Below, piece after piece: positions 20,640-41,036 of a DNA stretch of 64,000 bases. Position 1 is the first letter of the stretch. Every line of letters starts with the position of its first letter. Origin of the DNA: Lysobacter soli (GTDB lineage: Bacteria; Pseudomonadota; Gammaproteobacteria; Xanthomonadales; Xanthomonadaceae); contig NZ_QTJR01000007.1 in assembly GCF_003382285.1 (NCBI RefSeq), forward strand, positions 1 through 64,000, in the 5' to 3' direction. Made by a program: the position numbers and the translations under genes. Below the pieces are notes generated by a model that was given only the letters and a program-made list of their open reading frames with translations, did no database searches and had not been told where the DNA came from.

Positions 20640-21296
20640 CTAGTAGTGGTGCACCGTGCCGTGGCGCCACGTCTCGTATTCGTGGCGGACTTTATGGCTG
20701 ATCAGGTCGTAGGCCCTGGCGTCATCGCGCTCCCACTTCCGCTGCATCGCCCAAGTGCAGTAGTCAACAGCCTGCAGGCACGGATCGGCCATGGCAGGAC
20801 AATGATCGGTCTTCCAGTCGATGCGAATGCCATAGAACTGGCGCATCACGTCCTGAATTCCAGCTTCAAAACCTGCCCGGCCCTTCTTCGTACCGAGGCT
20901 CGCTGCGGTGACCAGCATCTCCCGCGCGTCGCCTAGGATCTTCCGGTGCGCGCCGTAAAAGTGGAAGTACCACGCGTGCTGGTAGAACCGATGTTCGGTC
21001 GGCCGGATTTGCCGCTGAGCCTTGGACTTCTCCAGGATAGTGGCTTCGATCGTGAGATCCTCATCGCGCAACAGCTCGAAAACGCGATCACGAACTGCCT
21101 GCTTGTCCTCGGTTGCGTGAAGGCAGTCGCCTACCGGTAGACCCTCCCAAACCAGCTGTTTCCGAAGTCGGAGGAGCTTGGCGCCCAGATCGCAGTTCGG
21201 CACCGTCATCGTGCACAGTATGAAATAGCGACTGGCCCGCCCGTTTCGCATGAAAGCGAAGTCGCCTGCCTCGTCAGCGAACACGTACCTTCTCAT
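20640..21296 (-). CDS. DUF3800 protein
   Basis: 218 residues opening MRRYVFADEAGDFAFMRNGR then ASRYFILCTMTV. The early aspartate in FADEAGDF is the first acidic residue of the DUF3800 pattern, and the C-terminal MADPCLQAVDYCTWAMQRKW provides the later conserved aspartates. DUF3800 proteins are predicted RNase H-fold nucleases or nuclease-like proteins found on mobile elements and defence islands; the reaction is not demonstrated. It lies just outside the left attachment repeat of the island, next to a decayed integrase-type leader, so may belong to an older insertion. Confidence 0.8.
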   Translation of the reverse strand: MRRYVFADEAGDFAFMRNGRASRYFILCTMTVPNCDLGAKLLRLRKQLVWEGLPVGDCLHATEDKQAVRDRVFELLRDEDLTIEATILEKSKAQRQIRPTEHRFYQHAWYFHFYGAHRKILGDAREMLVTAASLGTKKGRAGFEAGIQDVMRQFYGIRIDWKTDHCPAMADPCLQAVDYCTWAMQRKWERDDARAYDLISHKVRHEYETWRHGTVHHY

Positions 21297-21574: not shown

Positions 21575-21617
21575 TGGGCCCACCAGGATTCGAACCTGGA
21601 ACCAAGGGATTATGAGT
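21575..21617. repeat. Left attachment repeat (attL), tRNA 3'-half copy
   Basis: Identical over 43 bp to 40964-41006: it runs from the discriminator base through the T arm to the anticodon CAT. Sequence diverges right after the anticodon and no CCA is encoded, so this copy is not a tRNA gene. Confidence 0.9.
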
Positions 21618-22555: not shown

Positions 22556-22725
22556 AGCCATTGGGCCTCGGGTCACCTGCCAGATCGTCGCTCGTCGATG
22601 CAGCGAGGGAGGTTTAGATGGTGGCGTAGACGCTTAGGTAGAAGCGGAGAGGCGAGAGGCCCCCGCCCCATGGCCGCTCGTCGGCAAAGTCTGGAAGGGG
22701 GTCTTCTCCCCGCACTCCCGCTATG

Positions 22726-22740
22726 GTACGTTTTTCGTAC
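22726..22740. promoter_or_regulatory. GTACG-N5-CGTAC palindrome, candidate XRE operator
   Basis: GTACGTTTTTCGTAC lies 32 bp upstream of the first gene of the plus-strand operon. Short GTAC palindromes of this spacing are typical for XRE-type autoregulators, and the operon's second gene is one. Confidence 0.5.
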
Positions 22741-22771
22741 ATCCATTGTGCGATTCCGGGAAGGGCGAAGA

Positions 22772-23053
22772 ATGGGCGACAAGAAGCAGGAAATTGAGGC
22801 ATCCCTGGGGCGGTTCTGGGATGAAATGGCGATTGAGCTAGGCGAGGACCCCCAAGACACAGGGGCCTTGGTCGGCGCGCCCCTGGATTCCTTGACCGCG
22901 ATGGAGGCAATGCTCGAAATCGACAAGCTGCTCAATCGGAAGATTCCAGCCGATACCGTCATCCGCAAGGGCGGATACGAGTCGAAGGAGCAATTCGTCG
23001 AGCATTTGACCGCGGAGGTCCTCAAGTACGTCGCGGAGCATGCCGATGACTAG
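22772..23053 (+). CDS. Acyl-carrier-protein-like protein
   Basis: 93 acidic residues from ATG 22772 (a longer frame is arginine-rich noise). The segment LVGAPLDSLTAMEAMLEIDK puts Ser40 in a DSL motif at the position where acyl/peptidyl carrier proteins are phosphopantetheinylated, followed by a helix and a final amphipathic helix (YESKEQFVEHLTAEVLKYVA). It could instead be a serine-containing helical adaptor that only resembles a carrier. No acyltransferase or synthetase is nearby. It is the first gene of a tightly packed operon, overlapping the XRE gene. Confidence 0.6.
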   Translation: MGDKKQEIEASLGRFWDEMAIELGEDPQDTGALVGAPLDSLTAMEAMLEIDKLLNRKIPADTVIRKGGYESKEQFVEHLTAEVLKYVAEHADD

Positions 23054-23408
23054 CCATGAGAAAGATGTCCAGCGGGCCGAGATGGCGGAGCGGCTGCGAC
23101 AGTCCCGCGAGTATGTCGGACTGTCCCAAGAGGAAGTCGCGAGCGCCTTGGGGATATCACGACCAGCAGTGACTCACATCGAGTCAGGCAATCGCAAAGT
23201 CGAAGCAACTGAACTAAGCATCCTGGCGCGTTTGTACCGAAGAACCTTGGAGTACTTGCTGACAGGAAGAGAGCCAGCGCCGCAAGGGCCAGAACAGTTG
23301 GTTTTCCTGGCGCGGGCGATCAAGGGACTGTCAGAGCGCGATCTTGATGAAGTGGCGCGATTTGCAGAGTTCTTAAAGCAATCAAGCAAGGCAAGCCGAA
23401 AGGAGTAG
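23040..23408 (+). CDS. XRE-family transcriptional regulator
   Basis: 122 residues (or 120 from ATG 23046). The helix-turn-helix is textbook: LSQEEVASALGISRPAVTHI then ESGNRKVEATELSILARLY. The C-terminal part (ERDLDEVARFAEFLKQSSKA) is helical. It overlaps the preceding gene by 14 bp and is followed after 3 bp by the ImmA/IrrE protease. XRE plus ImmA pairs are a known switch: the protease cleaves the repressor on a signal, as in ImmR/ImmA of ICEBs1. The GTACG palindrome upstream of the operon is the likely operator. Confidence 0.9.
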   Translation: MPMTSHEKDVQRAEMAERLRQSREYVGLSQEEVASALGISRPAVTHIESGNRKVEATELSILARLYRRTLEYLLTGREPAPQGPEQLVFLARAIKGLSERDLDEVARFAEFLKQSSKASRKE

Positions 23409-23411
23409 GGA

Positions 23412-24431
23412 ATGCTCCCTCACATCAGGAACGCCGTCAGCCGCGCCACCGAGATCTATCATGACTCTGGTGCCAAGGCCCGTGTGGAGCAGGATGGGTA
23501 CACGCGGGTAGACCCCTTTCTGATCGCGGGAGGAGAGGGCGTTCCTGTCCTGCTTCGCCCCTTGGAAAAGCTGCTTGGTGCGTTCATCCGGGAGGATGTG
23601 TCCGGGATCCTGGTCAATTCTGAGCGATCGGCGGGCCTGATCCACCTGACGTGTGCCCACGAGCTCGGACACTACTTCATGGGCCACGACACGACTGGTG
23701 ACGAGACCATGGATTTCGGTCCCAGGGCGGCGCACGTGGAGCAGGAAGCGGACTGGTTTGCGTATCACCTGCTGGCCTCCCGAGGCGTGCTCGCCAACAT
23801 CATGCGACGCAAGCACTGGAGTGTTCAGTCGCTGAAGAATCCCTTTGTTCTCTACCAGCTTTCGCTGCGGCTCGGAATTAGCTATACGGCTACGGGCTGG
23901 TCACTTGTGCGTCAGAAGATCTTGAACGCCGACCAGGTTAAGGACCTGCTGAAGGTTCAGCCCATCGAGATCAAGCGCGCCCTCCTTGAAGAGCGTGAGT
24001 TCGACTCCCGTAAAGAAGTCTGGCTGCTCGACGAAAGCGACCGCGCCAGCGTCCTTGAACCGCGCGCGGATGACCAAGTCCTGGTTCGCTTGAAAAGCAA
24101 CGCCTCGTCGGGCTACCTGTGGTCCTTGGACGAACTGGCGTCTGAAGGATTTGAGGTCCGTCCGGTCCCGCGCTCGCCCGAGCAGATTCCTGATCCCGAG
24201 CAGCTCGTCTTCGGTGGTGTCGCTACGGCGGAATTCCTGTTGACGCTCGACGAGGCGGCGAAATCGCGGAACGGTGATCCTTTGGTGTTGGCCATGAAAG
24301 AGCAGCGGCCGTGGCTGAAGGGCGCCGAGGCGAACGCGACTTTCGAAACGAGGACGAAATATGAGCAGATTGGGCCGGGGCTTACCCGTGCCGCGAAGCA
24401 GCAGCTGCTAAGGGAGTCGTCGCTCGCGTGA
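23412..24431 (+). CDS. ImmA/IrrE metallopeptidase fused to a chagasin-like (I42) domain
   Basis: 339 residues. The N-terminal half is an M78 (ImmA/IrrE) peptidase: HELGH at 83-87 with a third ligand glutamate in VEQEADWFAYHLL. The C-terminal third, about 215-315, looks like a chagasin-type cysteine-peptidase inhibitor: NASSGYLW at 230-237 matches the first inhibitory loop (NPTTGYxW), FGGVAT near 267 the middle loop, and QRPW at 298-301 the third loop. The next gene, overlapping by four bases, encodes a papain-like peptidase, exactly the class chagasins bind. I infer that this protein both cleaves the regulator and restrains the peptidase. Fold assignment of the C-terminus is by motif only. 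Confidence 0.8.
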   Translation: MLPHIRNAVSRATEIYHDSGAKARVEQDGYTRVDPFLIAGGEGVPVLLRPLEKLLGAFIREDVSGILVNSERSAGLIHLTCAHELGHYFMGHDTTGDETMDFGPRAAHVEQEADWFAYHLLASRGVLANIMRRKHWSVQSLKNPFVLYQLSLRLGISYTATGWSLVRQKILNADQVKDLLKVQPIEIKRALLEEREFDSRKEVWLLDESDRASVLEPRADDQVLVRLKSNASSGYLWSLDELASEGFEVRPVPRSPEQIPDPEQLVFGGVATAEFLLTLDEAAKSRNGDPLVLAMKEQRPWLKGAEANATFETRTKYEQIGPGLTRAAKQQLLRESSLA

Positions 24432-25057
24432 TCATCAAGGAAGAGATCTCACTGCCGCAGGCGGGCAATCCGGCACGGGACCAGGGGCAGCGCCCAACCT
24501 GTATTGCGTTCGCCCTTTCTGAGCTGAACCTGCCATATGCCCCCACGATCGAAGCGCTCAGCCCCGAATACGTCTATCAAGCGGCCGCCAACCTGACGCC
24601 TAATTGGGCTCCGGGTGCCGGTGTCCGCTTGGGTGTCGCCTTGCAGGCGGCATCGTCTGGGCAACCCATCGAGGCGGACTTCCCGTATCAGGCGACCGAG
24701 CCCGCTGCGCCGGTGCCGGCTCCCCCGGCGGGGTTCAGCCTCTACGGCACGGCGCTGGGAGTGCTGCCGCGCGACCTCGAATCGATCGCGGAAGCAATCC
24801 GACGCCAACTGCCTGTTGGGCTCGCCATCAAATTGACCAAGAGCTTCTACGTCCCGAGGGACGGGGTCATCGCCTTCGAACCGGAGTCCGTTCCCAATGT
24901 TCTCCACGCGGTGACAGTCGTGGGGCTTGGCTGGAACGAGGGCACTCCCTATTTCCGCATTCGCAACAGCTGGGGCGATGGCTGGGGGATGCGAGGACAG
25001 GCTTGGCTCTCCGGTGATTACATTCGCGAGCACGCGATCTGTGCGTTTGGAGGATGA
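24428..25057 (+). CDS. Papain-like (C1) cysteine peptidase
   Basis: 209 residues, cytosolic: no signal peptide or propeptide, unlike secreted papains. The active site is complete: DQGQRPTCIAFA with oxyanion Gln19 and catalytic Cys25, HAVTVVGLGW with His160, and RNSWGDGWG with Asn180. A proline/alanine linker lies near 90-102. It overlaps the ImmA/chagasin gene by four bases upstream and the thymidylate-synthase-like gene by four bases downstream, so the three are coupled. An intracellular C1 peptidase beside an inhibitor domain suggests a peptidase held inactive until a trigger. Confidence 0.88.
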   Translation: MIIKEEISLPQAGNPARDQGQRPTCIAFALSELNLPYAPTIEALSPEYVYQAAANLTPNWAPGAGVRLGVALQAASSGQPIEADFPYQATEPAAPVPAPPAGFSLYGTALGVLPRDLESIAEAIRRQLPVGLAIKLTKSFYVPRDGVIAFEPESVPNVLHAVTVVGLGWNEGTPYFRIRNSWGDGWGMRGQAWLSGDYIREHAICAFGG

Positions 25058-25863
25058 CGGTGGCAAAGGTATTCAGTGCCGAACGACTTGTTCCCGCCTG
25101 GCTGGATGCGGCGCGTAGCTTGAACGCAGCTCCCGATCGAACGGATCGCAACTTCGTGCTAGAGATTTCGTCGCCCGCTCGCGTGGAAGATGATGACTTG
25201 CAGGTCATCAATGCGGTCGATGAGACGCTGCGCGCGGGGAAGAGCGGGTTCGGTGTGTTCACCGTTGCCGGAACAATCTTCCCGCAGGGGCTGTATCTCC
25301 GGTCCGGCCGACCGGACTTCTACAAGCGTTACCTCGACTCGATGAAAGCAGGGAAGAAGGAGGGCACATGGGGTACCTACGCGATGCGCATGATGGAGCG
25401 CACTCACCCAAAGTCAAGGAAGGTCATCAATCCGTTGGATACGATCGTGACCAAGCTTCAAGAGACCAAGACCGGGCGGAAGATTAAGTCAGCCTATGAG
25501 CTCGGCGTCCACGACGTAACTGACTTGCTGCATGGCGAGATCGGCTGCGAGCTTCCGATTCACGAGCCCGCGACCGACGGAGGGCGGGCGACCAACATTC
25601 CGTGCCTGAGTCACCTCAGCTTCAAGCTCGATCCAGGGAAGGGCGCCGTCGATCTCACTGCGGTGTATCGATCCCACTACTACGCACAACGCGCACTCGG
25701 CAATCTGGTCGGGTTGAGCCAGCTACTGAACTTCGTCACCAAGGAATCCGGATACGCCCCCGGCGTCTTGACCTGTGTAAGCACCCTGGCGCACCTGGAC
25801 GCTGAGTCGTTTGGAGGCACAGGTGCCGCGACCGCGCTGCTGAAACGCCTGCGCGCACCCTAA
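25054..25863 (+). CDS. Thymidylate-synthase-superfamily enzyme
   Basis: 269 residues, the size of ThyA. Recognisable pieces are in ThyA order: KEGTWGTYAMRMMER (like GxxYGxxWR), NPLDTIVTKLQ (like the DQ helix), IPCLSHLSFKL with Cys184 where ThyA has its catalytic PC-H, and VDLTAVYRSHYYAQRALGNL with Arg206-Ser207 like the RSxD loop. The final GVLTCVSTLAHLD resembles the ThyA GDAHxY strand. It is divergent from housekeeping ThyA and may make a modified pyrimidine (as dUMP/dCMP hydroxymethylases do) or sense nucleotides. It ends the operon, 3 bp from the convergent UDG-like gene. Confidence 0.7.
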   Translation: MTVAKVFSAERLVPAWLDAARSLNAAPDRTDRNFVLEISSPARVEDDDLQVINAVDETLRAGKSGFGVFTVAGTIFPQGLYLRSGRPDFYKRYLDSMKAGKKEGTWGTYAMRMMERTHPKSRKVINPLDTIVTKLQETKTGRKIKSAYELGVHDVTDLLHGEIGCELPIHEPATDGGRATNIPCLSHLSFKLDPGKGAVDLTAVYRSHYYAQRALGNLVGLSQLLNFVTKESGYAPGVLTCVSTLAHLDAESFGGTGAATALLKRLRAP

Positions 25864-25866
25864 CGG

Positions 25867-26538
25867 TTAGAGCAGCGCGACTTGTTGTGCCCGGTTCAAC
25901 GCATTGACTGGCAGCCGATAGAGTTGCTGCATGCCATCCCGAAACTCTCTAACGCCGCCATAGCTGGGGTGGCGAATGGTGATTACTTTGACCCCGAACC
26001 GCTGCGCATAGAACGCGGCGTCCTGACCGATCGCAACGATCTGCCGGATTCTCAGCCACGAGATGAGTGCGTTATTCAGCTCATCCACCTGGTCGAGCTC
26101 ACGCGCCGTGAACCGGCGATTGGTGAAGGGGTTGCCCGGTTCGTGAGGGTGGAACGGAAAGACGTTCCACAGGAGTGGGGGCGTATCGATCGCCCGCAGC
26201 ACCGCCCAGATTTCCGCTGCCGTCCGTTCCGCAACGGCGGGCCCGCGAGTGGCCTGACGAGAATGGCACCCAGGGTAGCGTCGGGCCAGTTCGGGTAGGT
26301 GATACTCGTCGGTCAACGCTAGGCCGGTCCGGCGGCCGCCTCGATAGCCGAGGTCTCGCCCCATCCAGATCGTGTCGACGCCGATCTCGGCCGCCGCCGT
26401 CAGGTAGGTGCGCAGATTCCGCCTTCGTGACTCCGCAGCGTCCGCGCGGTCGTGCACCGGGCAAACGTCCGCGTAGGGGTTGAAAACGTTGTCCAGGCTA
26501 AAGGCGGCGAGTGCTTTTACGAAGGCTGTTGGGGTCAT
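25867..26538 (-). CDS. Uracil-DNA-glycosylase-superfamily protein
   Basis: 223 residues with the UDG fold signatures: WMGRDLGYRGGRRTG near 58-72 (water-activating loop region), LLWNVFPFHPHEPG with Asn125 in the base-pocket position, and IRHPSYGG at 188-195 like the HPSP leucine-loop motif. Cys26 and nearby residues do not form an obvious FeS cluster. It is the last gene of the minus-strand operon and overlaps the MazG-like gene by four bases. Removal or recognition of a modified pyrimidine is the expected chemistry, though nucleobase specificity cannot be read. Confidence 0.82.
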   Translation of the reverse strand: MTPTAFVKALAAFSLDNVFNPYADVCPVHDRADAAESRRRNLRTYLTAAAEIGVDTIWMGRDLGYRGGRRTGLALTDEYHLPELARRYPGCHSRQATRGPAVAERTAAEIWAVLRAIDTPPLLWNVFPFHPHEPGNPFTNRRFTARELDQVDELNNALISWLRIRQIVAIGQDAAFYAQRFGVKVITIRHPSYGGVREFRDGMQQLYRLPVNALNRAQQVALL

Positions 26539-27746
26539 TGCGGTACGGCTGAGTTGGCGGTGCGAAACGACAGTTCGTGACGCTCCATGTCGACCGTGAC
26601 TATTCCACCACGGTGGTGTCTCAGCAGACGAAACACCTCAAATCCCTTCAAGATCGCAAGCTCCCACTGCCAGAGCTTACACCGGTCCACCTCGTAGCCC
26701 TCGACCATGCTCTGGATCTGTTTCAATACGCCGTAATCGAGCTTGCCGGCCTTCACGCCGTCATAGAGTTTAAGGCGCTTGGCGTGGTTGAAAATCCAGG
26801 TGGCAATGCCCTCCTCGATGATCATGGCGCGAGCGCCATCTTCGTTCTCATCGACCTTCTTGACGGACTTGCGCTTGCGCTTCAGCAGGCCTCTGACTAC
26901 AGGAGACCACCCAAGATAGGCGATGTAGGCCAGGTGGAAGACGTCGTGGAAGCGGTAGTCGTCCGCTTCATTGCTGTTGTCGGTTAGACGATCCCCGATG
27001 AAGACGTCATTGAGAAGCTGAAAGACGTATCCATCGCGTTCGACGAACTCGATCTCGAACCGTCTTGGGAACCGCTCATGGGCGGGGTACTTACTTTCAG
27101 GATCGAAGTAGGCCGGGTAAACCTTCTCGTCGCCCGGCCAGCGACTGGAGATCTTGTCGAGGTTGTCGCGTGCGATGCTCTCGGCGCGCAGATCAAAGCA
27201 GCCGCACGTCAGTACCCACTCGGCAAACAGGGTGCCGAAGTACTCTCGCAGCGCCGGTGGGCTCATTGACTGAAACACCGCCAACGACATGTTGGCGAGA
27301 GTTCCGGCAGAGTTGGCCAAGGTGCCCAGTTGCTTAACTCGGTCCAGGTCCGAGCGCTCCTTGTGAGTATCAAGGAGTCCATCGATCTGGCGAAAATTCA
27401 CGGGTTCGGACGCCGGCTGATCGTTTTCCCCAAAGCGCTTCCGCAGACGTCGGATGCAATGGTCGCCCAGTTCGTTGGGCAAAATGCCGAGAAAACCTGC
27501 CGTGCCTACCAGGTACCAAAGCGCGTCCCCAAGTTCTTCCGCGGCCTGGGCGTTCTGCGGGTCCGTCAGTTGGTCGCGTACGGACTTCTTGACCGAGGCG
27601 AGTAGTCCACCGGTTTCCCCGAAGTAGCCGAAACGCAGATTGTCGAACTCGTCAGGAGTGCTCTGGAATCGATTGGTCTCCCGAGCCTTTAGTGCGTACT
27701 CAGGCAAGGAGAGTGGCTGCGGTTGGGGCAATGCGGGCGTCATCAA
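26535..27746 (-). CDS. MazG-like nucleotide pyrophosphohydrolase with C-terminal helical domain
   Basis: 403 residues. The N-terminal 90 residues hold the MazG pattern: FGETGGLLASVKKSVRDQL followed by AAEELGDALWYLVG, with the acidic residues that bind magnesium. MazG-type enzymes hydrolyse (d)NTPs or ppGpp to monophosphate plus pyrophosphate. The long C-terminal part (RFHDVFHLAYIAYLGWSPVV, then EEGIATWIFNHAKRLK) occurs in a known subgroup of larger MazG-like proteins and has no assigned role. It lies 27 bp after the DUF4031 gene and overlaps the UDG-like gene, making one operon. Confidence 0.82.
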   Translation of the reverse strand: MMTPALPQPQPLSLPEYALKARETNRFQSTPDEFDNLRFGYFGETGGLLASVKKSVRDQLTDPQNAQAAEELGDALWYLVGTAGFLGILPNELGDHCIRRLRKRFGENDQPASEPVNFRQIDGLLDTHKERSDLDRVKQLGTLANSAGTLANMSLAVFQSMSPPALREYFGTLFAEWVLTCGCFDLRAESIARDNLDKISSRWPGDEKVYPAYFDPESKYPAHERFPRRFEIEFVERDGYVFQLLNDVFIGDRLTDNSNEADDYRFHDVFHLAYIAYLGWSPVVRGLLKRKRKSVKKVDENEDGARAMIIEEGIATWIFNHAKRLKLYDGVKAGKLDYGVLKQIQSMVEGYEVDRCKLWQWELAILKGFEVFRLLRHHRGGIVTVDMERHELSFRTANSAVPQ

Positions 27747-27773
27747 GCAGTCCTTCGCTTATAGTTAGGGGCT

Positions 27774-28061
27774 TCAGGCGAGTGCCATCTGCGCACTTCT
27801 CCGGAGAATATCCGCTCGGACGCGTTTGCAGCAGGCAATGAGGGTCGCCCGGTCCGCCTCTACTGCACCCATGCGCAATGCCCGATCCCGAACCGCCATG
27901 GTCACGTCGTAGTGCGGGTAGCGCCCCTTGTCCTGGAACCAGCGTCGCTGCAGCCCGAGGCGGGCCGCAAACAAGTGGAGCTCCTCTATGGAGTCGGCCA
28001 CAAGGTGGCACCACTCTTTACCGCGCCAGCGAATGCCTTCCGAATCTACGTAGACCGCCAT
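27774..28061 (-). CDS. DUF4031 protein
   Basis: 95 residues starting MAVYVDSEGIRWRGKEWCHL, then DSIEELHLFAARLGLQRRWF and YPHYDVTMAVRDRALRMGAV. This is the DUF4031 pattern, a small family seen in phages and mobile DNA with unknown activity. The start at 28061 is preferred because the family begins MxVYVD; an upstream ATG gives a non-conserved extension. It is the first gene of the minus-strand operon and is divergent from an XRE regulator across 44 bp that contain the palindromic operator. Confidence 0.85.
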   Translation of the reverse strand: MAVYVDSEGIRWRGKEWCHLVADSIEELHLFAARLGLQRRWFQDKGRYPHYDVTMAVRDRALRMGAVEADRATLIACCKRVRADILRRSAQMALA

Positions 28062-28084
28062 AAGGGCTCGCCAAACCGCAAAAG

Positions 28085-28105
28085 ATGTGCAAATAATTAG
28101 CACAT
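28085..28105. promoter_or_regulatory. Operator 1: ATGTGC-N9-GCACAT
   Basis: A 21-bp dyad placed directly against the ATG (28106) of the XRE gene and 24 bp from the DUF4031 start, so a bound repressor would block both directions. The same dyad recurs inside the XRE gene. Confidence 0.75.
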
Positions 28106-28444
28106 ATGGCTGAACGATTCAAGACACCTGAGGATGCCCTTCGACTGGGGGCCCGGATGCGGGCGGCGCGTTCCGAGGCGAGATTTTCGCTTACATACGT
28201 TGCAGATCAGACTGGTGTTGATCCAGGGCAGATCTCCAAAATGGAGCGAGGGCTAATGGTCACGCTGTCTCCAAATGTGCAGAAAATTTGCACATTTCTG
28301 CACGTGCCTGCTTTTCCGGGGCAGGTGCGGAAGATCGGACTTGGGACCAGGATTGATGCCTTGATTGCAGGGGCGCCAAGCAGTGAAGCGGGAATTGCTA
28401 AGCTGATAGGAGCGATCGAGGAGCTCGTTTGGAGGGGGAGTTAG
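28106..28444 (+). CDS. XRE-family regulator of the minus-strand operon
   Basis: 112 residues. The helix-turn-helix is FSLTYVADQTGVDPGQISKM then ERGLMVTLSPNVQKICTFLH. The ATG immediately follows operator 1, leaving no room for a ribosome-binding site in between, so it may be translated from a leaderless or very short leader message. A second identical-pattern operator lies within the coding region. The C-terminal helices (GIAKLIGAIEELVW) could dimerise. It most likely represses itself and the divergent DUF4031/MazG/UDG operon. Confidence 0.88.
   Translation: MAERFKTPEDALRLGARMRAARSEARFSLTYVADQTGVDPGQISKMERGLMVTLSPNVQKICTFLHVPAFPGQVRKIGLGTRIDALIAGAPSSEAGIAKLIGAIEELVWRGS
28275..28295. promoter_or_regulatory. 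Operator 2: ATGTGC-N9-GCACAT inside the XRE gene
   Basis: Shares arms, spacer length and the AATT core with operator 1, start-to-start 190 bp. This arrangement fits looping or roadblock autoregulation. Confidence 0.7.
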
Positions 28445-28578: not shown

Positions 28579-29319
28579 CTAGTTGCCGATCTTCAAGGGC
28601 TTTGGTCTCCAGCCCTTGCGAGGATCGTGGTACTTCGTCGCTTCACGAACTGAGGCCTCTTTCGACGCATCAGCCTGCTGATGAGCCGCCATGTAGGTAC
28701 CGCTGGCTTGCATTTGAGCCACCATCAGTTCCCGAAGCTGCTGGAGCTGCGTTATCTGGGCCAGGGCAATCTGGTTTCCAGCATCTACCGCGGCCTTCTG
28801 GCCGTCGGCCGTAGCAACGGCCGAACGCAGCGACGCCAAGGTCTGTTCTTCGGTAAACGCCCCGCGTGCCTGCAGGTTGGCCACGCGTAGTGCGCCCAGC
28901 ACTGAATCGCGAGACGTGTCGCTCCACTCGCGGTAGTCATCGCTATAGTTCGTCGTCGCTTGATAGCCTGGGAATCGCGCCTTGAAGGCCTTTTCGTAAT
29001 CGCTCGCTGTCACCGCAAGCGATCTTCCCTCCCGAATCACATGGTCGAGCCGCGTAAGCGCATCAATGGCCGTACCCAAGTCGCGTGTGTCGAGGCTCTT
29101 GGTATTGCGGAGCATGTTGTCGTACTGCTGCAGCTGCGCTTGGATCTGGCGGACCTCGTTGACGTTGCTCTGCACAGCACGAAGCTGCGTCAAATAGTTC
29201 TGCACGTAGTTGGTCGGGTCGAACACGGCCCACTGCGCCGCTGCCGGCAGGGTGTAGGTGATGCCGGTGCCGGTAATAGCAACCGCGAGGGCCAAAGCAA
29301 CGCTCTTTTGAATCTTCAT
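28579..29319 (-). CDS. trbJ: TrbJ-like conjugal transfer protein
   Basis: 246 residues with a signal peptide ending PAAAQWAVFDP, then the TrbJ/VirB5 opening FDPTNYVQNYLTQLRAVQSN and long coiled-coil helices (VRQIQAQLQQYDNMLRNTKS). TrbJ is a periplasmic minor-pilus or tip-type component of P-type mating channels. It directly follows trbL. The last 30 residues contain REATKYHDPRKGWRPK, nearly repeated at the end of the protein encoded at 30851-31351. The remaining trb genes (B, C, D, E, F, G, I) are not in the window. Confidence 0.85.
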   Translation of the reverse strand: MKIQKSVALALAVAITGTGITYTLPAAAQWAVFDPTNYVQNYLTQLRAVQSNVNEVRQIQAQLQQYDNMLRNTKSLDTRDLGTAIDALTRLDHVIREGRSLAVTASDYEKAFKARFPGYQATTNYSDDYREWSDTSRDSVLGALRVANLQARGAFTEEQTLASLRSAVATADGQKAAVDAGNQIALAQITQLQQLRELMVAQMQASGTYMAAHQQADASKEASVREATKYHDPRKGWRPKPLKIGN

Positions 29320-29334
29320 GGTGGTGATCCTGTT

Positions 29335-30864
29335 TTAGTCGTCGGTGTCAAGGCGGATGGAGACGGCACTAGCCGGCGGCGCCTCAGGCGGAAGCCGAGG
29401 CGGCGCGATTCTGCTGCCCCAATTCGGGTTATTCGGGTCGGGCTGACGAAACTCCGGGCTACCGTCGTCATTCAGTGCGGCCGACTGCTGCGCCGTTAGG
29501 GGCCTCACGGCACCGTCGGGCGCGCTCCCGATGTTGAGCGGCGCGGTTTCGCCTCCATTAGCGGTGACCGGCGCGCCTGCCTTCGTCTCGCGTACCTGTT
29601 GAGCTTGTCCCTGCAGGCTATTCGCAGCACGGGTGCCCATGCTCTCGACGTTACGGCCCCGGCTGTCAGTCGCATTGGGCGATGGCGGCGCTAGGCCAAG
29701 GCCTGCTTTCGCCGCCTGGCCGGCTTCCGATGCTGTTGCGCCAACGGCGTGGCCCAACCCCCTGACCGCAGCACCAATGCCGGACGCTCCGCTTTCCTTT
29801 GCCAGCGAGACGCCGCTCGTCGTCGCCTGGATTGCGCCCTGCGTAGCGGCAGCAATAGCCGATCCTCCGCCGGTTGCCACGGCTGCGCCCATTGCCACTG
29901 CGCCACCTGCCGCAAGGGCCGGCGCGATCGCATCGTTCGGCCCCAGCGACACCGCCCCATTGACCAGACTGCCAGCCACTTTTGGAATCGACCACGCCAA
30001 CGCGGCAAAAACCGCCGAGCCGACCAACAGCTGCAACACCTGGCGCAGCACGGCATCCGGCGTGCCCTGCGTGAGCGAGGCTGGCCAGCTGGTAACGAGC
30101 TGCATGCCAAAGCCGATTACGACGTTGAGCATGAACAACTGCGTGCCCGCACCGATCATGTAGCTGAGGTAATTCTTGGGAATGTCCCGGGTGAAGGAAA
30201 TTCCGCCAAAACCCAGCAGCAGCACTCCGCCGTACATGACCATGTAAAGCTCGATCACTCGGACCAGATACAGAATTCCCACGATTGCGAAGCACGCGAG
30301 GATGCCCATGCCGGCGAGAGCGAGCGGCAAGCCGAAAGCGGCTGTGTCGCCCCATCCCATTGCGCCGATCGCGTCGAAGGTTCGGAAGCACGCGTCGAAC
30401 CCGAGAACGACAATGCCGGAAGCGGAGAGTTCACCTAGACCCGTGACAGCCGCGCCGCTCTGGATGAAATACCCGATGAACTGCAAAAGCAGCTGTGGAC
30501 CGTGAGTGACCACCATCATGAAGAATCCGAGCTTTAGGATCTCCATCGCAAAGCGCGTTATCAGCGTGGTGATATTGCCGTCACCGTTCAGCATCTGCTT
30601 GGTGAAGAACATAATGATGCTGAGGACCGCCAACAGACCAAATAGCCTGGACGCGTACGGTTCTAGTACCGCCTGCATCGCCTTTGCCTGCTGCATATAG
30701 AACGCGGCAATGTCATCGAACATACCCATGCTCGGCGCGATCTGTTGCGCAGTTGCCGCCGCCGAAAGGAACAGGACGACTACGGCCAAACCGCCTGCGA
30801 GGATCGCCACGCGGGCACGACCTTGCACCGCCCGCGTCGGGGGCATCGGTTTAACGGGCTTCAT
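29335..30864 (-). CDS. trbL: TrbL-like conjugal transfer membrane protein
   Basis: 509 residues from ATG 30864, chosen because AAGGA stands eight bases upstream; a longer start at 30891 overlaps the preceding gene more. After a signal or anchor segment (VAILAGGLAVVVLFLSAAAT) come five to six membrane helices (for example LLAVLSIIMFFTKQML, FGLPLALAGMGILACFAIVG, IELYMVMYGGVLLLGFGG) and a long glycine/alanine-rich hydrophilic tail. This is the TrbL/VirB6 layout, the inner-membrane core of the mating channel. It lies between the TrbK-position gene and trbJ. Confidence 0.87.
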   Translation of the reverse strand: MKPVKPMPPTRAVQGRARVAILAGGLAVVVLFLSAAATAQQIAPSMGMFDDIAAFYMQQAKAMQAVLEPYASRLFGLLAVLSIIMFFTKQMLNGDGNITTLITRFAMEILKLGFFMMVVTHGPQLLLQFIGYFIQSGAAVTGLGELSASGIVVLGFDACFRTFDAIGAMGWGDTAAFGLPLALAGMGILACFAIVGILYLVRVIELYMVMYGGVLLLGFGGISFTRDIPKNYLSYMIGAGTQLFMLNVVIGFGMQLVTSWPASLTQGTPDAVLRQVLQLLVGSAVFAALAWSIPKVAGSLVNGAVSLGPNDAIAPALAAGGAVAMGAAVATGGGSAIAAATQGAIQATTSGVSLAKESGASGIGAAVRGLGHAVGATASEAGQAAKAGLGLAPPSPNATDSRGRNVESMGTRAANSLQGQAQQVRETKAGAPVTANGGETAPLNIGSAPDGAVRPLTAQQSAALNDDGSPEFRQPDPNNPNWGSRIAPPRLPPEAPPASAVSIRLDTDD

Positions 30865-35435: not shown

Positions 35436-36050
35436 ATGGAAATGGCACGAGCAGCCGAGCTGCTGGGGCATCTAGCCGATGTGGTGGATCACCCACCGCA
35501 CGATGATTCCGAACGCCTCCTCCTAAGCCGAACTCTCGCGATTACCTCGCTCCATTTCGCCGCCTCGGTTCGGAATCTGTGCGACGCCGAACTGCCGATA
35601 GGGGCGGCTGCAGTGCTCCGAAGTCAGTTCGAGGCTGTGCTCAGAGCCATCTGGGTCCTGTATCGGGCGAACGATGGGCAGATAGAGCGGCTTACGTCGA
35701 CCCTGTCGATGGAATCCCAGCAAGCCACCAAGAACATTCCTCAAGTAGCAGAAATGTTGGAGATGCTGGAGAAGATTCCTCAACTCGCGAACCTGATAGT
35801 CGCGTTACGCGAGTTCAAGGACAGTTCTTGGATGCCGCTGAACTCGTTCGTCCATTCCGGCATCCACGCCGTGCACTGGACCCGCTTTGAACCTCCGCAG
35901 GCTTTGGTCGAGCAAATGTTCCGCAGCAGCAATGGCCTTGCGGTACTGGCGTGTCAGCATCTCGCTATCCTCACAGGACGCCTTGGCCTCCAGAACGAGG
36001 TGATTGCCGCATGTGCGGCTTACTCGAGCTGTCTGCCCCACCGCAGGTAG
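35436..36050 (+). CDS. DUF6988-like protein
   Basis: 204 helical residues; AGGAGG stands seven bases before ATG 35436. The segments LHFAASVRNLCDAELPIGAA, AAVLRSQFEAVLRAIWVLYR and LNSFVHSGIHAV follow the DUF6988 pattern, a family common in mobile DNA and resembling the fold of HEPN-type proteins. Without a clear RxxxxH the nuclease function is unsupported. It is the last small gene before the restriction enzyme. Confidence 0.7.
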   Translation: MEMARAAELLGHLADVVDHPPHDDSERLLLSRTLAITSLHFAASVRNLCDAELPIGAAAVLRSQFEAVLRAIWVLYRANDGQIERLTSTLSMESQQATKNIPQVAEMLEMLEKIPQLANLIVALREFKDSSWMPLNSFVHSGIHAVHWTRFEPPQALVEQMFRSSNGLAVLACQHLAILTGRLGLQNEVIAACAAYSSCLPHRR

Positions 36051-36355: not shown

Positions 36356-39300
36356 ATGAGCAAGCTTGACGCGATGCGTACCTACCTAGCCTCTGTGGAG
36401 CAGGCCCTTAAGACGGGCCAAGCCAGCGAGCACACCCACCGCCCGGCGCTCGAAGCGCTGCTTGAGGCGCTCGGGGGGCCGGAAGTAGACGCCATCAACG
36501 AGCCGCGCCAGATCAAGTGCGGCGCGCCGGACTTCATCATCGTCCGCGGCACCGTGCCGCTGGGCCATGTCGAAGCCAAGGACGTCGGGCTGGACCTTGC
36601 CAAACTGGAGCGCGGCGAGCAGCTCACCCGCTATCGCGAATCGCTCGGCAACCTCGTCTTTACCGACTACCTTTCCTTCCGCTGGTACTTAGATGGCGAA
36701 CTTCGCCTGACTGCTGATCTGCCGCGCCCCGCCGCCAATGGCCGCATCCGCTGGAATGACGACGCGGCGTCCGCCACCGTGCAGTTGCTGGACCAGTTCC
36801 TGCTTGCCGATATCCCCCTCAAGTCCACACCTCAGGACCTTGCTACCCGCATGGCGGGCCTGGCCAAGCTAATCCGCAGCCTGATCGAGCAGACCTTCAA
36901 GGCTGAGGGGGAGCAAGGCGAATTGCATGGCCAGTTGCAGGCCTTCCGACAAGTCCTAATCGAATCGCTGACCGTCGAGCAATTCGCCGACATGTACGCC
37001 CAGACCTTGTGCTACGGCCTGTTCGCGGCGCGCTGCAATGCACCGTCCAAGGGGTTCACACGTCAGATCGCGGCGAGCGCGCTGCCAAAAACCAATCCCT
37101 TCTTGCGCAAGCTGTTCAACTCCATCGCCGGCCCGGACCTGGACGAGCGCATTGCTTGGGCCGTGGATCAACTGGCGGAGCTGTTGGCACGTGCCGACAT
37201 GGACGAGATCCTGTCCGACTTCGGCAAGCGCACGCGCCAGGAAGACCCCGTAGTGCACTTCTACGAGACGTTCCTCTCTGCCTACGACCCGAAGATGCGC
37301 GAGGCGCGAGGCGTGTACTACACGCCGGAGCCAGTGGTCGGCTACATCGTGCGCAGCGTGGATGCATTGCTTAAGCGCGACTTTGGAATGAAGGAAGGCT
37401 TGGCCCATGCGAAGAAGGTCAAGCTCAAGCGCCCGAAAGTACAGGGTAAGGGTGAGGAGACCTATGAAGCGCACCGTTTGCAGATCCTCGACCCAGCCAC
37501 CGGTACAGGCACCTTCCTCTACGCAGTAATCGCGAGGATCCGCGAGCACTTCGATGGGAACGCGGGAGCGTGGCCGGGCTACGTGGCCGAGCACCTGCTG
37601 CCGCGCTTGTTCGGCTTCGAGTTGCTGATGGCGCCGTACGCCGTGGCGCACATGAAGCTGGGGCTAGAGTTGGAGCAATCCGGATACGACTTCTCCAGCG
37701 ATCAGCGCCTGGGTGTGTTCCTCACTAATTCATTGGAAGAAGCGCACGAACTGACCGGCTTGCCGCTGTTCACTCAATGGCTGGCCGAGGAGTCGCGTGC
37801 GGCGGCGAACGTGAAGCGCGATGCGCCAGTGATGGTGGTGTTAGGCAATCCGCCGTACTCGGGACATTCGGCTAACACCGGCGACTGGATCGCCGGATTG
37901 CTCCGTGGTTACGACGCCCTGAACAAGCGCGCGACCGAGAACTATTTTGAGGTGGACGGCAAGCCCCTAGGTGAGCGCAACCCAAAGTGGCTCAATGACG
38001 ATTACGTGAAGTTCATCCGTTTTGCGCAGTGGCGCATCGAACAAACCGGACACGGCATCCTCGCCTTTGTCACCAACCACGGCTACCTCGACAACCCGAC
38101 CTTTCGTGGGATGCGCGAAAGCTTGATGCGCGGTTTTGACGAGATCTACTTGCTGGACCTGCACGGTAATAGCAAGAAGAAAGAAAAGACACCGGACGGT
38201 GAAAAAGACGAGAACGTCTTCGACATTCAGCAGGGCGTGGCAATTGGCATCTTCGTACGCCGAGAGGGCTCGCAGCGCAACGGCGGTCACTTAGCCCGAG
38301 TGCATCACTCCGATTTGTACGGGCTTCGCCAAGACAAGTACGCAACACTTGACGCGCTCGACCTTAGCAACACCGACTGGATTGAGCTGGCACCGGTGAG
38401 TCCGAGCTACTACTTCGTCGCCGAGGATGGCGACCTTCGTCAGGAGTATGGCCAAGGTTGGTCTATCACTTCTCTGATGCCTGTAAACGGCGTTGGCATC
38501 GTGACTGCGCGAGATGAACTAACAATCCGCGAGTCAGGCGACGAAGTATGGGACGTCATCAATGATTTTTGCTGCCTCTCTTCCGAAAGCGCTCGTGAGA
38601 AGTACGCGCTGGGTAAGGACTCACAGGACTGGAAGGTGGCCCTAGCGCAGAGTGATATTAGGGACTCAGGCCCAAGTCGGACCGCCGTTGCGCCCATTCT
38701 TTATAGGCCGTTTGATGCTCGCTATACGTACTTTACCGGCAAGCCGCGCGGATTCATTTGTCGCCCCCGTTCGGAGGTCATGAAGCACATGCTTAGGCCG
38801 AATGTTGGCATCATCACGGCGCGCAGCAACAAGTCGGGTGCGGTCGATCATTTCCTTGCTTCAGCTCTCATGACTGAGGCAAAAACCGGCGAGAGCACAA
38901 CACAATCCAGCTTTTTCCCCCTTTGGCTCTATCAGGCTGACTCAGCAGATTTGTTGGAGCAGGGATCAACAGGAAAAAGCGCCAACTTGGCGCCTGATTT
39001 TCTACGGGCGTTGCACGAGGTAATTGGCTACACCCCTTCCCCCGAGAACACGCTCGCTTGGATGTACGCTGTACTCTACACCCCCTCCTACCGAAGTCGC
39101 TACATCGAGCTTCTACGCCGCGACTTCCCGCGTATTCCGCTCCCCCCAGGCCGCGATCTCTTTGACCGCTTCGTCGCCATTGGTGGCGAATTGATCGCGC
39201 TCCACACGATGGAGCAGAAACAGCCGCGTATTAGCCGCTTCGATGTCACCGGAAACAACGAGGTGGTCAAGTTACGCTGGGTTCCCGGCAACGACGGCAC

Positions 39301-39550
39301 GGGCCGCGTCTACATTAACGAGGCACAGTACTTCGGTGGCGTGCCGCAGGGCGTGTGGGACACCCACATCGGCGGCTACCGGGTGGTCGAAAAGTGGTTG
39401 AAGAGCCGTAGAGGTCGTCAGCTAAGCTTTGAGGACGTCATGCACTACCACGAGGTTGTCGCTGCCCTTGCTCGCACGCTAGAGCTTCAGTCGGAACTTG
39501 ATTCCATAGTGGACGCATACGGGGGCTGGCCACTGCGCCAGCGCACATAA
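36356..39550 (+). CDS. Single-polypeptide restriction-modification enzyme (type IIG/ISP-like)
   Basis: 1064 residues in one chain. The N-terminus has a PD-(D/E)xK nuclease: APDFIIVRG at 57-65 and HVEAKD at 71-76. A helical linker follows. The methyltransferase core carries motif I (LDPATGTGTFLYAV, near 380) and motif IV (VVLGNPPYSG, near 495), the N6-adenine class. GVYYTPEPVVGYIV precedes motif I as in type I/IIG methylases. The last 400 residues should be the target-recognition domain. No helicase motifs (Walker A, DEAH) are seen, unlike translocating type ISP enzymes of about 1500 residues. It would methylate host DNA and cut unmodified phage DNA. Confidence 0.87.
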   Translation: MSKLDAMRTYLASVEQALKTGQASEHTHRPALEALLEALGGPEVDAINEPRQIKCGAPDFIIVRGTVPLGHVEAKDVGLDLAKLERGEQLTRYRESLGNLVFTDYLSFRWYLDGELRLTADLPRPAANGRIRWNDDAASATVQLLDQFLLADIPLKSTPQDLATRMAGLAKLIRSLIEQTFKAEGEQGELHGQLQAFRQVLIESLTVEQFADMYAQTLCYGLFAARCNAPSKGFTRQIAASALPKTNPFLRKLFNSIAGPDLDERIAWAVDQLAELLARADMDEILSDFGKRTRQEDPVVHFYETFLSAYDPKMREARGVYYTPEPVVGYIVRSVDALLKRDFGMKEGLAHAKKVKLKRPKVQGKGEETYEAHRLQILDPATGTGTFLYAVIARIREHFDGNAGAWPGYVAEHLLPRLFGFELLMAPYAVAHMKLGLELEQSGYDFSSDQRLGVFLTNSLEEAHELTGLPLFTQWLAEESRAAANVKRDAPVMVVLGNPPYSGHSANTGDWIAGLLRGYDALNKRATENYFEVDGKPLGERNPKWLNDDYVKFIRFAQWRIEQTGHGILAFVTNHGYLDNPTFRGMRESLMRGFDEIYLLDLHGNSKKKEKTPDGEKDENVFDIQQGVAIGIFVRREGSQRNGGHLARVHHSDLYGLRQDKYATLDALDLSNTDWIELAPVSPSYYFVAEDGDLRQEYGQGWSITSLMPVNGVGIVTARDELTIRESGDEVWDVINDFCCLSSESAREKYALGKDSQDWKVALAQSDIRDSGPSRTAVAPILYRPFDARYTYFTGKPRGFICRPRSEVMKHMLRPNVGIITARSNKSGAVDHFLASALMTEAKTGESTTQSSFFPLWLYQADSADLLEQGSTGKSANLAPDFLRALHEVIGYTPSPENTLAWMYAVLYTPSYRSRYIELLRRDFPRIPLPPGRDLFDRFVAIGGELIALHTMEQKQPRISRFDVTGNNEVVKLRWVPGNDGTGRVYINEAQYFGGVPQGVWDTHIGGYRVVEKWLKSRRGRQLSFEDVMHYHEVVAALARTLELQSELDSIVDAYGGWPLRQRT

Positions 39551-39778: not shown

Positions 39779-40873
39779 TCACGTCGCAGGGTTCGACGGA
39801 CCACGCCTTTCGTCCAACCGATCCACGAGATCCTCGGCGCGCAAATGAGTGTATCGCTTAAGCATCTGCATCGACTTATGCCCGCTGATGGCGGAAACTT
39901 CCTGATCGCTGAAGCCAGCCTCAACGAACCGACTTACCGCTTCGTGGCGAAGGTCGTGAAAGCGGAGGTCGTCGATACCAAGCTGCCTTTTTAGCTCGGT
40001 CCAGGCCTTGTTGAAGTTGTAGGCGCGACGCCTCCCGTCACGCCCAGGTTCCCCGAAGAACACAAGATCGCATCCCTTCGGGCGCGTCGGATTCTCGACC
40101 GCGCTCCGCAGGGCCGCTACGGCAGCCTTCGACAACGGGACCGTACGAGCACCGTCGTTCTTGGTCTGCGTCAGGCGCGCGATTCGGCGCTCTAGGTCGA
40201 CCTGTCGCAGCTTTAGGCCGCTGATCTCCCCGGAGCGCATCCCAGTCTCGATAGCTACGCGAAAGATCCACCCCAACATGGGATTCGAGTAGTTGGCCAG
40301 CGCCGCTGCGAGGTCCTGCTCTTCAGTCGTGGTGAGCCGCCTATCGCGCCCGGCCCCTATACGTGGCTTGCGGATGTTCGCAACAGGATTCTGGATGAGT
40401 CCAAGCTGCCACTCCTTGATGGCGATGGTGAATAGATGGCTCAACAAGGCAAGCTCAAGCCGAACAGTGTTGGGCTTGATGGTCGTCTTTGGCGCATTTC
40501 TTCTTGCGCTGTAAGCGCGCGCGGACAGCCGCTCATCTCGGTAGCGAGCGACGAGATCGGGTGTGATAGCGGCGAGGGAGTAATCCCCAAAGAACTCTCG
40601 AAGCGGCTTAGCCTTCAGGATCTCAGCCTGTTGGGTCGCCGGCTTCTTACTAGGAGTCACCTCTGCCAAGTAGCGATCGAGCGCCGAATGGAAGGTGAGG
40701 CGTTCCGACGAGCTCCGCCGAATGTAGACGCCGCGAACCATCTCGTCTTCGGTCCGGCGAGCCCAATCCTCGGCATCTCGCTTCGTGCGAAACGTCTTGG
40801 CTACGGTAGGCCACCCGTGCTTACGGATGACTGCCTTCCAGCTTCCCTTTGGGTTCTTTACGAACGTGGCCAC
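39779..40873 (-). CDS. Tyrosine recombinase integrase
   Basis: 364 residues from GTG 40873 (a longer frame reads into the tRNA gene and is rejected; the exact start is uncertain). The N-terminal arm-binding segment VATFVKNPKGSWKAVIRKHG and a core-binding domain precede the catalytic domain with Arg in ETGMRSGEISGLK, HDLRHEAVSRF, and the HKSMQMLKRYTHL end providing histidine and the nucleophilic tyrosine. It lies immediately inside the right attachment site and reads away from the tRNA, the usual arrangement. It should recombine the 43-bp repeats. Confidence 0.92.
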   Translation of the reverse strand: MATFVKNPKGSWKAVIRKHGWPTVAKTFRTKRDAEDWARRTEDEMVRGVYIRRSSSERLTFHSALDRYLAEVTPSKKPATQQAEILKAKPLREFFGDYSLAAITPDLVARYRDERLSARAYSARRNAPKTTIKPNTVRLELALLSHLFTIAIKEWQLGLIQNPVANIRKPRIGAGRDRRLTTTEEQDLAAALANYSNPMLGWIFRVAIETGMRSGEISGLKLRQVDLERRIARLTQTKNDGARTVPLSKAAVAALRSAVENPTRPKGCDLVFFGEPGRDGRRRAYNFNKAWTELKRQLGIDDLRFHDLRHEAVSRFVEAGFSDQEVSAISGHKSMQMLKRYTHLRAEDLVDRLDERRGPSNPAT

Positions 40874-40960
40874 AGTCCAGGCGCGCGAAATTGGTGTACC
40901 TAGACTGTACCCAGCATCTGGAGGGAGTTCCAGCAGATCCGCTGGAGGCCTTGCAATTAC

Positions 40961-41036
<76 letters not shown>

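Follow-up and report, generated by a model that had tools for sequence, protein, structure and literature searches.

What might a thymidylate synthase (TS)-like enzyme, a nucleotide pyrophosphohydrolase and a uracil-DNA glycosylase (UDG) do together, when they are encoded next to a repressor, two peptidases and an acyl carrier protein (ACP)? This question is raised by a locus of Lysobacter soli, situated at positions 22,726–28,444 of a 64,000-nucleotide stretch of contig NZ_QTJR01000007.1 (positions 1 to 64,000, forward strand; the whole stretch is termed here the window), where two operons converge. The original prediction regarded it as a candidate new defence or nucleotide-surveillance system. 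We judge it probable that the cassette serves defence or conflict in one way or another. Tentatively, and at somewhat less than an even chance, we favour the reading that it is a mobile, DNA-damage-inducible defence cassette acting via a 5-substituted uracil nucleotide, of which 5-hydroxymethyl-dUMP (the deoxyuridine monophosphate derivative) would be the likeliest. The cassette genes are as follows.

22772..23053, plus strand: ACP-like protein of 93 aa, with a DS(L) serine and a GGY motif (PP-binding, E 0.04)
23040 or 23046..23408, plus strand: XRE1, a CapH-like repressor (capH, E 1.6e-13; HTH_31, 1.8e-13)
23412..24431, plus strand: M78 metallopeptidase of the ImmA/CapP type, with a chagasin-like (I42) domain fused at its C-terminus (M78, 7.7e-9; capP, 4.2e-12; I42, 8.6e-4)
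24428..25057, plus strand: papain-like C1 peptidase (Peptidase_C1, E 2.3e-13)
25054..25863, plus strand: TS-like protein, probably a nucleotide C5-modifying enzyme (TIGR03283, 1.2e-12; AlphaFold2 model)
25867..26538, minus strand: SMUG1-like UDG (predicted fold)
26535..27746, minus strand: MazG-type nucleoside triphosphate pyrophosphohydrolase with a MazG_C domain (MazG_C, 2.8e-76; MazG-like pyrophosphatase, 1.7e-34; AEELGD motif)
27774..28103, start at 28061 likelier, minus strand: DUF4031 protein (DUF4031, E 2.6e-26)
28106..28444, plus strand: XRE2, probable regulator of the minus operon (HTH_31, 7e-7)

All nine open reading frames (ORFs) claimed for the two convergent operons were recovered at their positions, together with the 3-bp gap between the convergent stops (TS stop at 25863, UDG stop at 25867) and the 4-bp overlaps of ImmA/C1, C1/TS and MazG/UDG; the ACP and XRE1 frames overlap by 8–14 bp. 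The families, which had been recognised by motifs, were upheld by Pfam, PADLOC and NCBIfam for XRE1, M78, C1, the TS-like protein, MazG_C, DUF4031 and XRE2. The chagasin and ACP assignments stood in part: their single-sequence Pfam scores are below the cut-off, but their key residues are conserved across relatives.

The cassette was found to recur widely. A collection of 84,980 species was scanned with the TS-like family, which returned 130 relatives, and 80 of these were kept for counts within 6.5 kb of the TS gene (L078, without a TS profile match, was left uncounted). ImmA and C1 are each present in 76 of 80 neighbourhoods, XRE in 75, ACP in at least 75 (the profile misses annotated ACPs in L006, L009, L017 and L018), MazG in 70, UDG in 51, HMUDK_hel and DUF4031 in 20 each, a phosphopantetheinyl transferase (PPTase) in 12, a dCTP deaminase in 7 and AcpS in 6. 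As this gene set recurs in most of the 80 genome loci, chance neighbourhood was rejected. The search patterns were derived from proteobacterial sequences; the 80 loci span eight bacterial phyla, with 69 in Pseudomonadota, and relatives also lie on actinobacterial, cyanobacterial and one archaeal plasmid, the cassette being uncommon where sampled. The TS-like gene is present in 21 of 72,556 plasmid records (12 conjugative, 1 mobilizable and 8 non-mobilizable by PLSDB typing), and 20 of the 21 contain the cassette (15 as retrieved sequences, the rest judged by match coordinates); those of the HMUDK_hel type include plasmids of Streptomyces, a cyanobacterium and the archaeal Haloarcula. Among 398 genomes of the phylum the TS profile matches 12 at E 1e-10 and four at E < 1e-20; all four have MazG, two (the window included) have UDG and two have HMUDK, and in G561, the second UDG-type genome, the UDG gene is interrupted. 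The remaining eight matches, with E values near 1e-11 to 1e-13, belong to far longer frames. Within 250 genomes of the order a solid TS match was obtained only in the window's own genome. Such patchy spread (4 of 398 genomes), along with conjugative typing of 12 of the 21 TS plasmids, was counted in favour of a mobile defence cassette. No tblastn match of TS or UDG was found in 50,697 phage records (E 1e-5), on which ground phage-borne DNA hypermodification was rejected as an identity for the locus; one IMG/VR viral contig, L024, has the TS–HMUDK form.

Several relatives show other arrangements. Cassette genes decay in places: the C1 frame of a Sphingomonas plasmid cassette is split by a stop codon (L005:7265-7993), and in Nioella the UDG gene is broken by about 1.4 kb of inserted DNA (L088:9744-12338; L149 is apparently the same contig). 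A large metallophosphoesterase lies beside the cassette at L008:10810-12990, L023:8846-11017 and L097:11786-14026, and in the second half of this large protein Pfam detects a TS-like region for L008 (E 0.0012), as does the TS profile for L023, L082 and L097. At L150:738-4741 and in similar weak matches, most of them in one genus, a TS-like domain is embedded in a frame of ~500–790 aa; a dCTP-deaminase-like gene lies near the L150 frame, the one such locus inspected, which represents a different TS context.

Is the TS-like protein simply a thymidylate synthase? Its score against TIGR03283 is 47.8 bits, below the curated family threshold of 174.55, and an ordinary thyA was rejected, because the host thyA lies elsewhere (G000:C4) and the TS-like family differs from ThyA. 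Cys184, Arg206 and Asn217 are conserved at 99% (n = 97) and align with Cys146, Arg166 and Asn177 of ThyA, in what we take to be the E. coli numbering; going by thymidylate synthases in general, the kept Asn presumably indicates a uracil rather than a cytosine nucleotide. The best solved match of the AlphaFold2 model (pLDDT 88) is a riboflavin-dependent monooxygenase with dCMP (9iqc; Z 17.3, 3.5 Å, 206 residues), followed by the dCMP hydroxylase AfhB (9iqu; Z 17.0), the CMP hydroxymethylase MilA (16.8) and ThyA (15.1), with the top three tied, thus the modelled fold is suggestive of a place nearest to (d)CMP hydroxylases and hydroxymethylases, with ThyA not far behind. A single-sequence search of the Protein Data Bank (PDB) with this protein gave nothing useful, and when PDB sequences were searched with a profile of the TS alignment, thymidylate synthases came up only at E 0.2 and worse. 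The helpers found around the core bear on its product. In 5 of the 80 loci (L048–L051 and L065) ACP is directly preceded by a dTMP kinase gene in the same orientation, these rhizobial kinases being five Thymidylate_kin Pfam matches that were assigned to loci by their P-loop pattern, and one is also found near the Haloarcula cassette; a search seeded with the Haloarcula protein returned only itself. The dCTP deaminase pathway leads to dUMP, and the dTMP kinase and dCTP deaminase helpers agree with a 5-modified uracil nucleotide.

The identity of the glycosylase is read mostly from its predicted structure. No UDG profile matches it in the Pfam scan, its relatives are annotated as uracil-DNA glycosylase in plasmid records, and an AP_endonuc_2 identity (Pfam E 0.0026, below cut-off) was overruled by the modelled fold. 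Ten SMUG1 entries lead the matches of the AlphaFold2 model (pLDDT 93.7) to solved folds, at Z 16.9–18.2 (the best at 18.2, 2.6 Å over 188 residues), ahead of SMUG2 (15.4), family 4 UDG (13.8), UdgX (13.1) and UNG (9.0), so the protein is predicted to be closest in fold to SMUG1, the family 3 UDG; a single-sequence PDB search with it gave nothing useful. The motifs RDLG (D62) and RHPS (H190) are 97–100% conserved in the family (n = 67). For SMUG1 itself the catalytic residues are given, in the published passages available to us, as N85 and H239, and by our own reading of the SMUG1 motifs D62 and H190 are their putative counterparts. According to the accessible part of one report, SMUG1 removes uracil, 5-hydroxymethyluracil (5hmU) and 5-fluorouracil (PMC13230825), and passages of another state that it promotes the toxicity of 5-hydroxymethyldeoxyuridine (5-hmdU) in mammalian cells, knockdown lowering the sensitivity to 5-hmdU (PMC12699328).

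The strongest pointer to a 5-modified uracil is the exchange of this glycosylase for HMUDK_hel, a helical protein of the 5-hmdU-kinase type. Among 95 TS loci, UDG was found in 61, HMUDK_hel in 26, neither in 8 (four of which end at a contig end just past TS or MazG) and both in none; beside the window's TS there is no HMUDK domain. A quick TS tree requires at least six switches between the two, three of which are forced by well-supported branches. The pointer consists in unrelated modules sharing one slot, the first similar to a 5hmU glycosylase, the second bearing a name that refers to action on 5hmdU in DNA. Plasmid loci with TIR-Nmad2 repeat the choice, with MazG-UDG in L013–L015 and HMUDK in L125; the TIR-Nmad2 genes lie at L013:3754-6669, L014:3752-6645, L015:3773-6666 and L125:3835-5963. 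Near HMUDK genes on Mycobacterium, Erythrobacter and Acinetobacter plasmids no cassette was found within the stretch read.

Do the two operons belong together, and on mobile DNA, as the original prediction assumed? From the TS side they do, in that UDG adjoins TS in 14 of the 21 plasmids and HMUDK_hel takes its place in six (the remaining record, H20, was left out of this tally). The view from the UDG side is mixed: TS stands beside UDG in 14 of 45 plasmid records, tallied by the coordinates of the matches listed, a listing that leaves out five UDG records, in 14 of 28 at ≥45% identity among the matches listed, and in two of five genomes with the UDG profile, of which G479 was not among the loci read. 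A TS core is almost always accompanied by UDG or HMUDK, but UDG also functions in other settings.

The control layer consists of two XRE regulators and the ImmA protease, and the claim that each XRE has its own palindromic operator was borne out, both palindromes recurring in relatives. The operators in the window, all located by pattern scan, are listed below.

22725..22741, plus strand: XRE1 operator GGTACGTTTTTCGTACA, two mismatches from the family consensus TGTnnGAnnnTCnnACA
28086..28104: XRE2 operator TGTGC-N9-GCACA, between DUF4031 and XRE2
28276..28294: second copy of the XRE2 operator, inside xre2

The XRE1 consensus is a 17-bp palindrome before ACP. In the 180 bp before ACP the best site matches it exactly in 52 of 87 loci and with at most one mismatch in 71 of 87, as compared with 6 of 1642 control stretches at the latter level; the pattern had been derived from some of these loci and took the place of a noisy scan for upstream palindromes. 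Despite its two mismatches, the window copy contains a perfect 5+5 palindrome. In nine loci a divergent acpS is the gene nearest to an exact XRE1 operator, with ACP on the other side in eight, which may tie activation of the ACP to the switch. An XRE2-type palindrome lies near DUF4031 in 10 of 22 loci, the window included, and was not found in 12; two such palindromes about 190 bp apart are also present in L027, L028 and L043, while L025 has the inner one only. An XRE gene lies in the same position past DUF4031 in 18 of the 20 loci L025–L044, the contig end cutting L035 and L036. The zinc site of ImmA is intact (HELGH at residue 83), and HExxH with the third Glu is kept at 98–99% (n = 96), thus XRE1 and ImmA resemble the CapH/CapP pair in sequence and arrangement. 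In the part of the source available, CapP is described as a protease activated by single-stranded DNA (ssDNA) that cleaves CapH at immune operons (PMC13373217). By analogy, cleavage of XRE1 by ImmA would likewise be triggered by ssDNA. Three loci (L057, L063 and L064) may represent a regulator-free form of the enzyme core.

Judged from their conserved active-site residues, the cassette enzymes look catalytically active. Besides the TS-like protein and ImmA, this applies to MazG, whose acidic residues are conserved at 93–97% (n = 91 relatives), and to C1, in which the papain site (Gln, Cys, His and Asn) is kept at 98–99% (n = 90). The ACP shows D39 and S40 as the sole invariant columns of a 16-row alignment, and across 87 sequences its Ser is conserved at 100%, the Asp at 93% and GGY at 93–100%; a PPTase or AcpS gene is present within 23 of 96 TS loci. 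The C-terminal domain of ImmA bears loops NASSGYLW at 230, FGG at 267 and RPW at 299, which match what we take to be the chagasin loop motifs (NxTTG-like, FGG, RPW). Out of 96 ImmA rows, 89 have both C1 and chagasin and five TS-linked ones have neither; the remaining two are L042, where ImmA is split and C1 stands without chagasin, and a row that is not TS-linked. L147 and L148 are further C1-less cassettes, also without a recognisable chagasin domain, as judged by a profile built solely from C1-bearing loci. The C1-less ImmA proteins keep an unrecognised C-terminal stretch, which may be a degenerate chagasin version, and the first five of them are mostly actinobacterial or cyanobacterial, so that few independent events are represented. 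The simplest reading of these sequences is that the sensor protease ImmA carries the inhibitor of its partner protease C1.

How could these parts work as one system? At rest, XRE1 bound to the operator over the promoter would hold the plus operon low. The ssDNA of a replicating invader would activate ImmA, which would cleave XRE1. The TS-like enzyme would then turn dUMP into a 5-modified form, kinases of the host or of the cassette would raise this to the triphosphate, and replication would insert the modified nucleotide instead of T. The SMUG1-like glycosylase would excise the modified base, leaving abasic sites and breaks in new DNA, and these lesions would stop the invader and perhaps the host too. 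MazG might trim the pool, acting on dTTP, or on the modified dNTP as a safety valve, and HMUDK_hel would stand in for the glycosylase in other lineages. Through the inhibitor domain of ImmA, the same trigger could free the second protease, C1. The sequences themselves show the gene set and its conservation, the active-site residues, the operators, the exchange of UDG for HMUDK_hel and the mobility of the window's island. We infer the substrate, the trigger, the order of the steps and defence itself, and we consider it doubtful that the whole chain holds in this form, from ssDNA-sensed synthesis of 5-modified deoxyuridine through its incorporation and lesioning by the cassette's own SMUG1-type enzyme or HMUDK_hel to the caged peptidase as a second output.

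A number of observations weigh against the favoured defence via a 5-substituted uracil nucleotide. On the side of the maker, His207 and Tyr209, the deoxyribose site of ThyA, are not kept in the TS-like family, hence the substrate could differ from dUMP, and ThyA trails the hydroxylases and hydroxymethylases by just some 2 Z units. On the side of the glycosylase, an Asp presumably takes the place of the catalytic Asn85 of SMUG1 (by our own motif reading), and when PDB sequences were searched with a profile of the UDG alignment no SMUG1 chain came up, the weak matches including UDG TM0511 (E 1.1). UDG is apart from TS in 31 of 45 plasmid records and, at ≥45% identity, in 14 of 28 among the matches listed; no TS match was obtained in three of the five genomes that match the UDG profile, L012 and L151 have UDG by itself, and other loci have MazG-UDG beside TIR genes. 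With UDG so frequently separated from TS, its substrate need not be what TS makes. Regulation is not uniform either, since TS, HMUDK and MazG stand in L057, L063 and L064 without XRE or ImmA matches, so that the switch is not universal, and no exact XRE1 operator precedes the MazG-UDG operon in UDG-type loci, the one in the window having its own regulator. Making and excising a base leaves the ACP and the peptidase unexplained, and gyrB accounts for 3 of 136 ORFs flanking relatives, hence some copies lie in ordinary chromosome.

Some of these facts suit other explanations. The glycosylase or HMUDK_hel may attack 5-modified uracil that phages themselves carry, with the TS-like enzyme and MazG adjusting or monitoring the pool; phages with 5hmdU-derived bases are known, as stated in the accessible passages of PMC6449724, and such surveillance would accommodate both the UDG/MazG pairs found with TIR-Nmad2 and without the TS core in L013–L015 and the solitary UDG of L012 and L151. 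We nevertheless hold it unlikely, because the 99% conservation of the TS-like site residues argues for catalysis in the core and the dTMP kinase gene that precedes the cassette in 5 of 80 loci speaks for the making of nucleotides. The caging of C1 leads to another possibility, a protease toxin-antitoxin or abortive system in which C1 is the toxin held by the chagasin domain of ImmA and the nucleotide enzymes sense or shape the trigger. The active sites of both C1 and ImmA are intact, and chagasin and C1 are present or absent together (both in 89 of 96 rows, neither in five, and neither again in L147 and L148); the seven TS-MazG-HMUDK cassettes without C1, however, make the peptidase look like an optional layer, and this explanation seems quite unlikely to us.

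It could also be asked whether the element marks its own DNA, a hypermodified base being put into it as protection against restriction, with HMUDK_hel as one step and UDG clearing intermediates. That HMUDK_hel is named after a 5-hmdU DNA kinase, that an ACP with PPTase or AcpS could carry an acyl group, and that the cassette sits on plasmids and an island would all fit. We judge self-modification improbable all the same: among the cassette genes we recognised neither a DNA polymerase nor a transferase, the phage records gave no match (the IMG/VR contig L024 aside), a damage-triggered repressor-protease switch fits constant self-marking poorly, and an excising glycosylase beside the maker would harm self DNA.

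The surroundings of the cassette bear on its mobility. It had been placed on an integrase-bounded island with a restriction enzyme, and this was confirmed by an exact 43-bp attachment repeat, a tyrosine integrase and a Type ISP enzyme. The island is 19.4 kb long and is inserted at tRNA-Met, the repeat pairing 21575–21617 with the 3' part of tRNA-Met at 40964–41006. Its features are as follows.

21575..21617: left attachment site, a 43-bp copy of the 3' part of tRNA-Met (repeat comparison)
35436..36047: DUF6988 protein (island gene)
36356..39547: Type ISP restriction-modification enzyme (island gene)
39782..40972, minus strand: tyrosine integrase, abutting tRNA-Met (E 1.1e-31)
40964..41006: right attachment site, within tRNA-Met(cat) at 40961–41036 (repeat comparison)

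With the Type ISP enzyme and DUF6988 beside the cassette, the whole resembles a small defence island; DUF6988 is newly implicated in defence by DefensePredictor, according to the part of that paper available (PMC13092281). A TrbL gene and a possible TrbJ-like gene (a weak DUF4141 match) lie directly past XRE2, at 28579–30891 of the window, and the island could represent an integrative conjugative element in decay. A DUF3800 protein is encoded at 20640–21296, just outside the left attachment site, and a tRNA-Pro called by ARAGORN at 18521–18618, in a repetitive stretch, is probably false. The flanks of relatives were scanned as well, with 136 of 144 ORFs used (eight being too long or near-duplicates) and 103 of 120 controls (17 oversized ones left out). 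Beside the three gyrB genes, the flanking ORFs include six phage-type integrases and a few transposase or type IV secretion system genes. PADLOC matched 198 families in the 136 flanking ORFs and 13 families in the 103 control ORFs, a comparison that gives weak support, as it counts families rather than proteins, several Septu PtuA/PtuB models being able to match one protein, and as the controls are ORFs from the window's family, thus from other taxa than the flanks.

What is new in this cassette, and what has been described before? The interpretation in the original prediction was supported in part, and it missed the CapH/CapP type of the switch, the likeness to SMUG1 and the interchange of UDG with HMUDK_hel. 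Its statement that no described system has this set holds insofar as no paper on the full set was found in the open-access literature searched; it does not hold for the parts, since TS, 5-hmdU-kinase, MazG and UDG domains in defence have already been published. In the accessible passages of the DefensePredictor paper (PMC13092281), TS, 5-hmdU kinase, deoxynucleoside monophosphate kinase and NMAD domains occur in validated E. coli defence systems, further systems with MazG, MazG-C, aGPT-Pplase and UDG are predicted, and Burroughs et al. (2015) are cited as having predicted several such domains in defence. From its sequence features the cassette would be a well-defined variant of this emerging kind of defence, and the mechanism given above is a proposal. 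It brings together a CapH/CapP-like switch, a papain-like protease whose inhibitor is fused to its partner, and two enzymes that may make and erase a modified uracil, and no joint description of the three was found in the open-access literature searched. For the TS and 5-hmdU-kinase domains in defence, whose action is left unexplained in the DefensePredictor passages, the proposal would supply a mechanism. If making and excising a base indeed underlies immunity here, this would amount to a programmed, prokaryotic form of 5-hmdU/SMUG1 cytotoxicity and to a new class of effector, and the cassette gives a direct test of the question: do bacteria use SMUG1-type toxicity as a weapon?

Comparison with known systems shows how far each likeness extends. 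AfhB, MilA and ThyA have the fold, the catalytic Cys, the phosphate-binding Arg and the base-reading Asn in common with the TS-like protein, yet they are only 10–17% identical to it, and the His207 and Tyr209 of ThyA are absent from it. SMUG1 is the nearest solved fold of the cassette glycosylase (Z 17–18 over ~190 residues) and differs from it by an identity of about 20% and by the family motif ARDLGYRGGRRTG, which has Asp where the Asn of SMUG1 is read. The DefensePredictor systems, in the passages available, have TS and 5-hmdU-kinase domains in common with those relatives that carry TS, HMUDK_hel and MazG, whereas the cassette of the window has UDG and not HMUDK, and neither 'acyl carrier' nor 'ImmA' occurs in the available text of the paper. 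With CapH/CapP the cassette shares an XRE and M78 pair near the operon head and a conserved palindromic operator; it differs in having the ACP gene first, a chagasin-like domain on the peptidase and nucleotide enzymes downstream.

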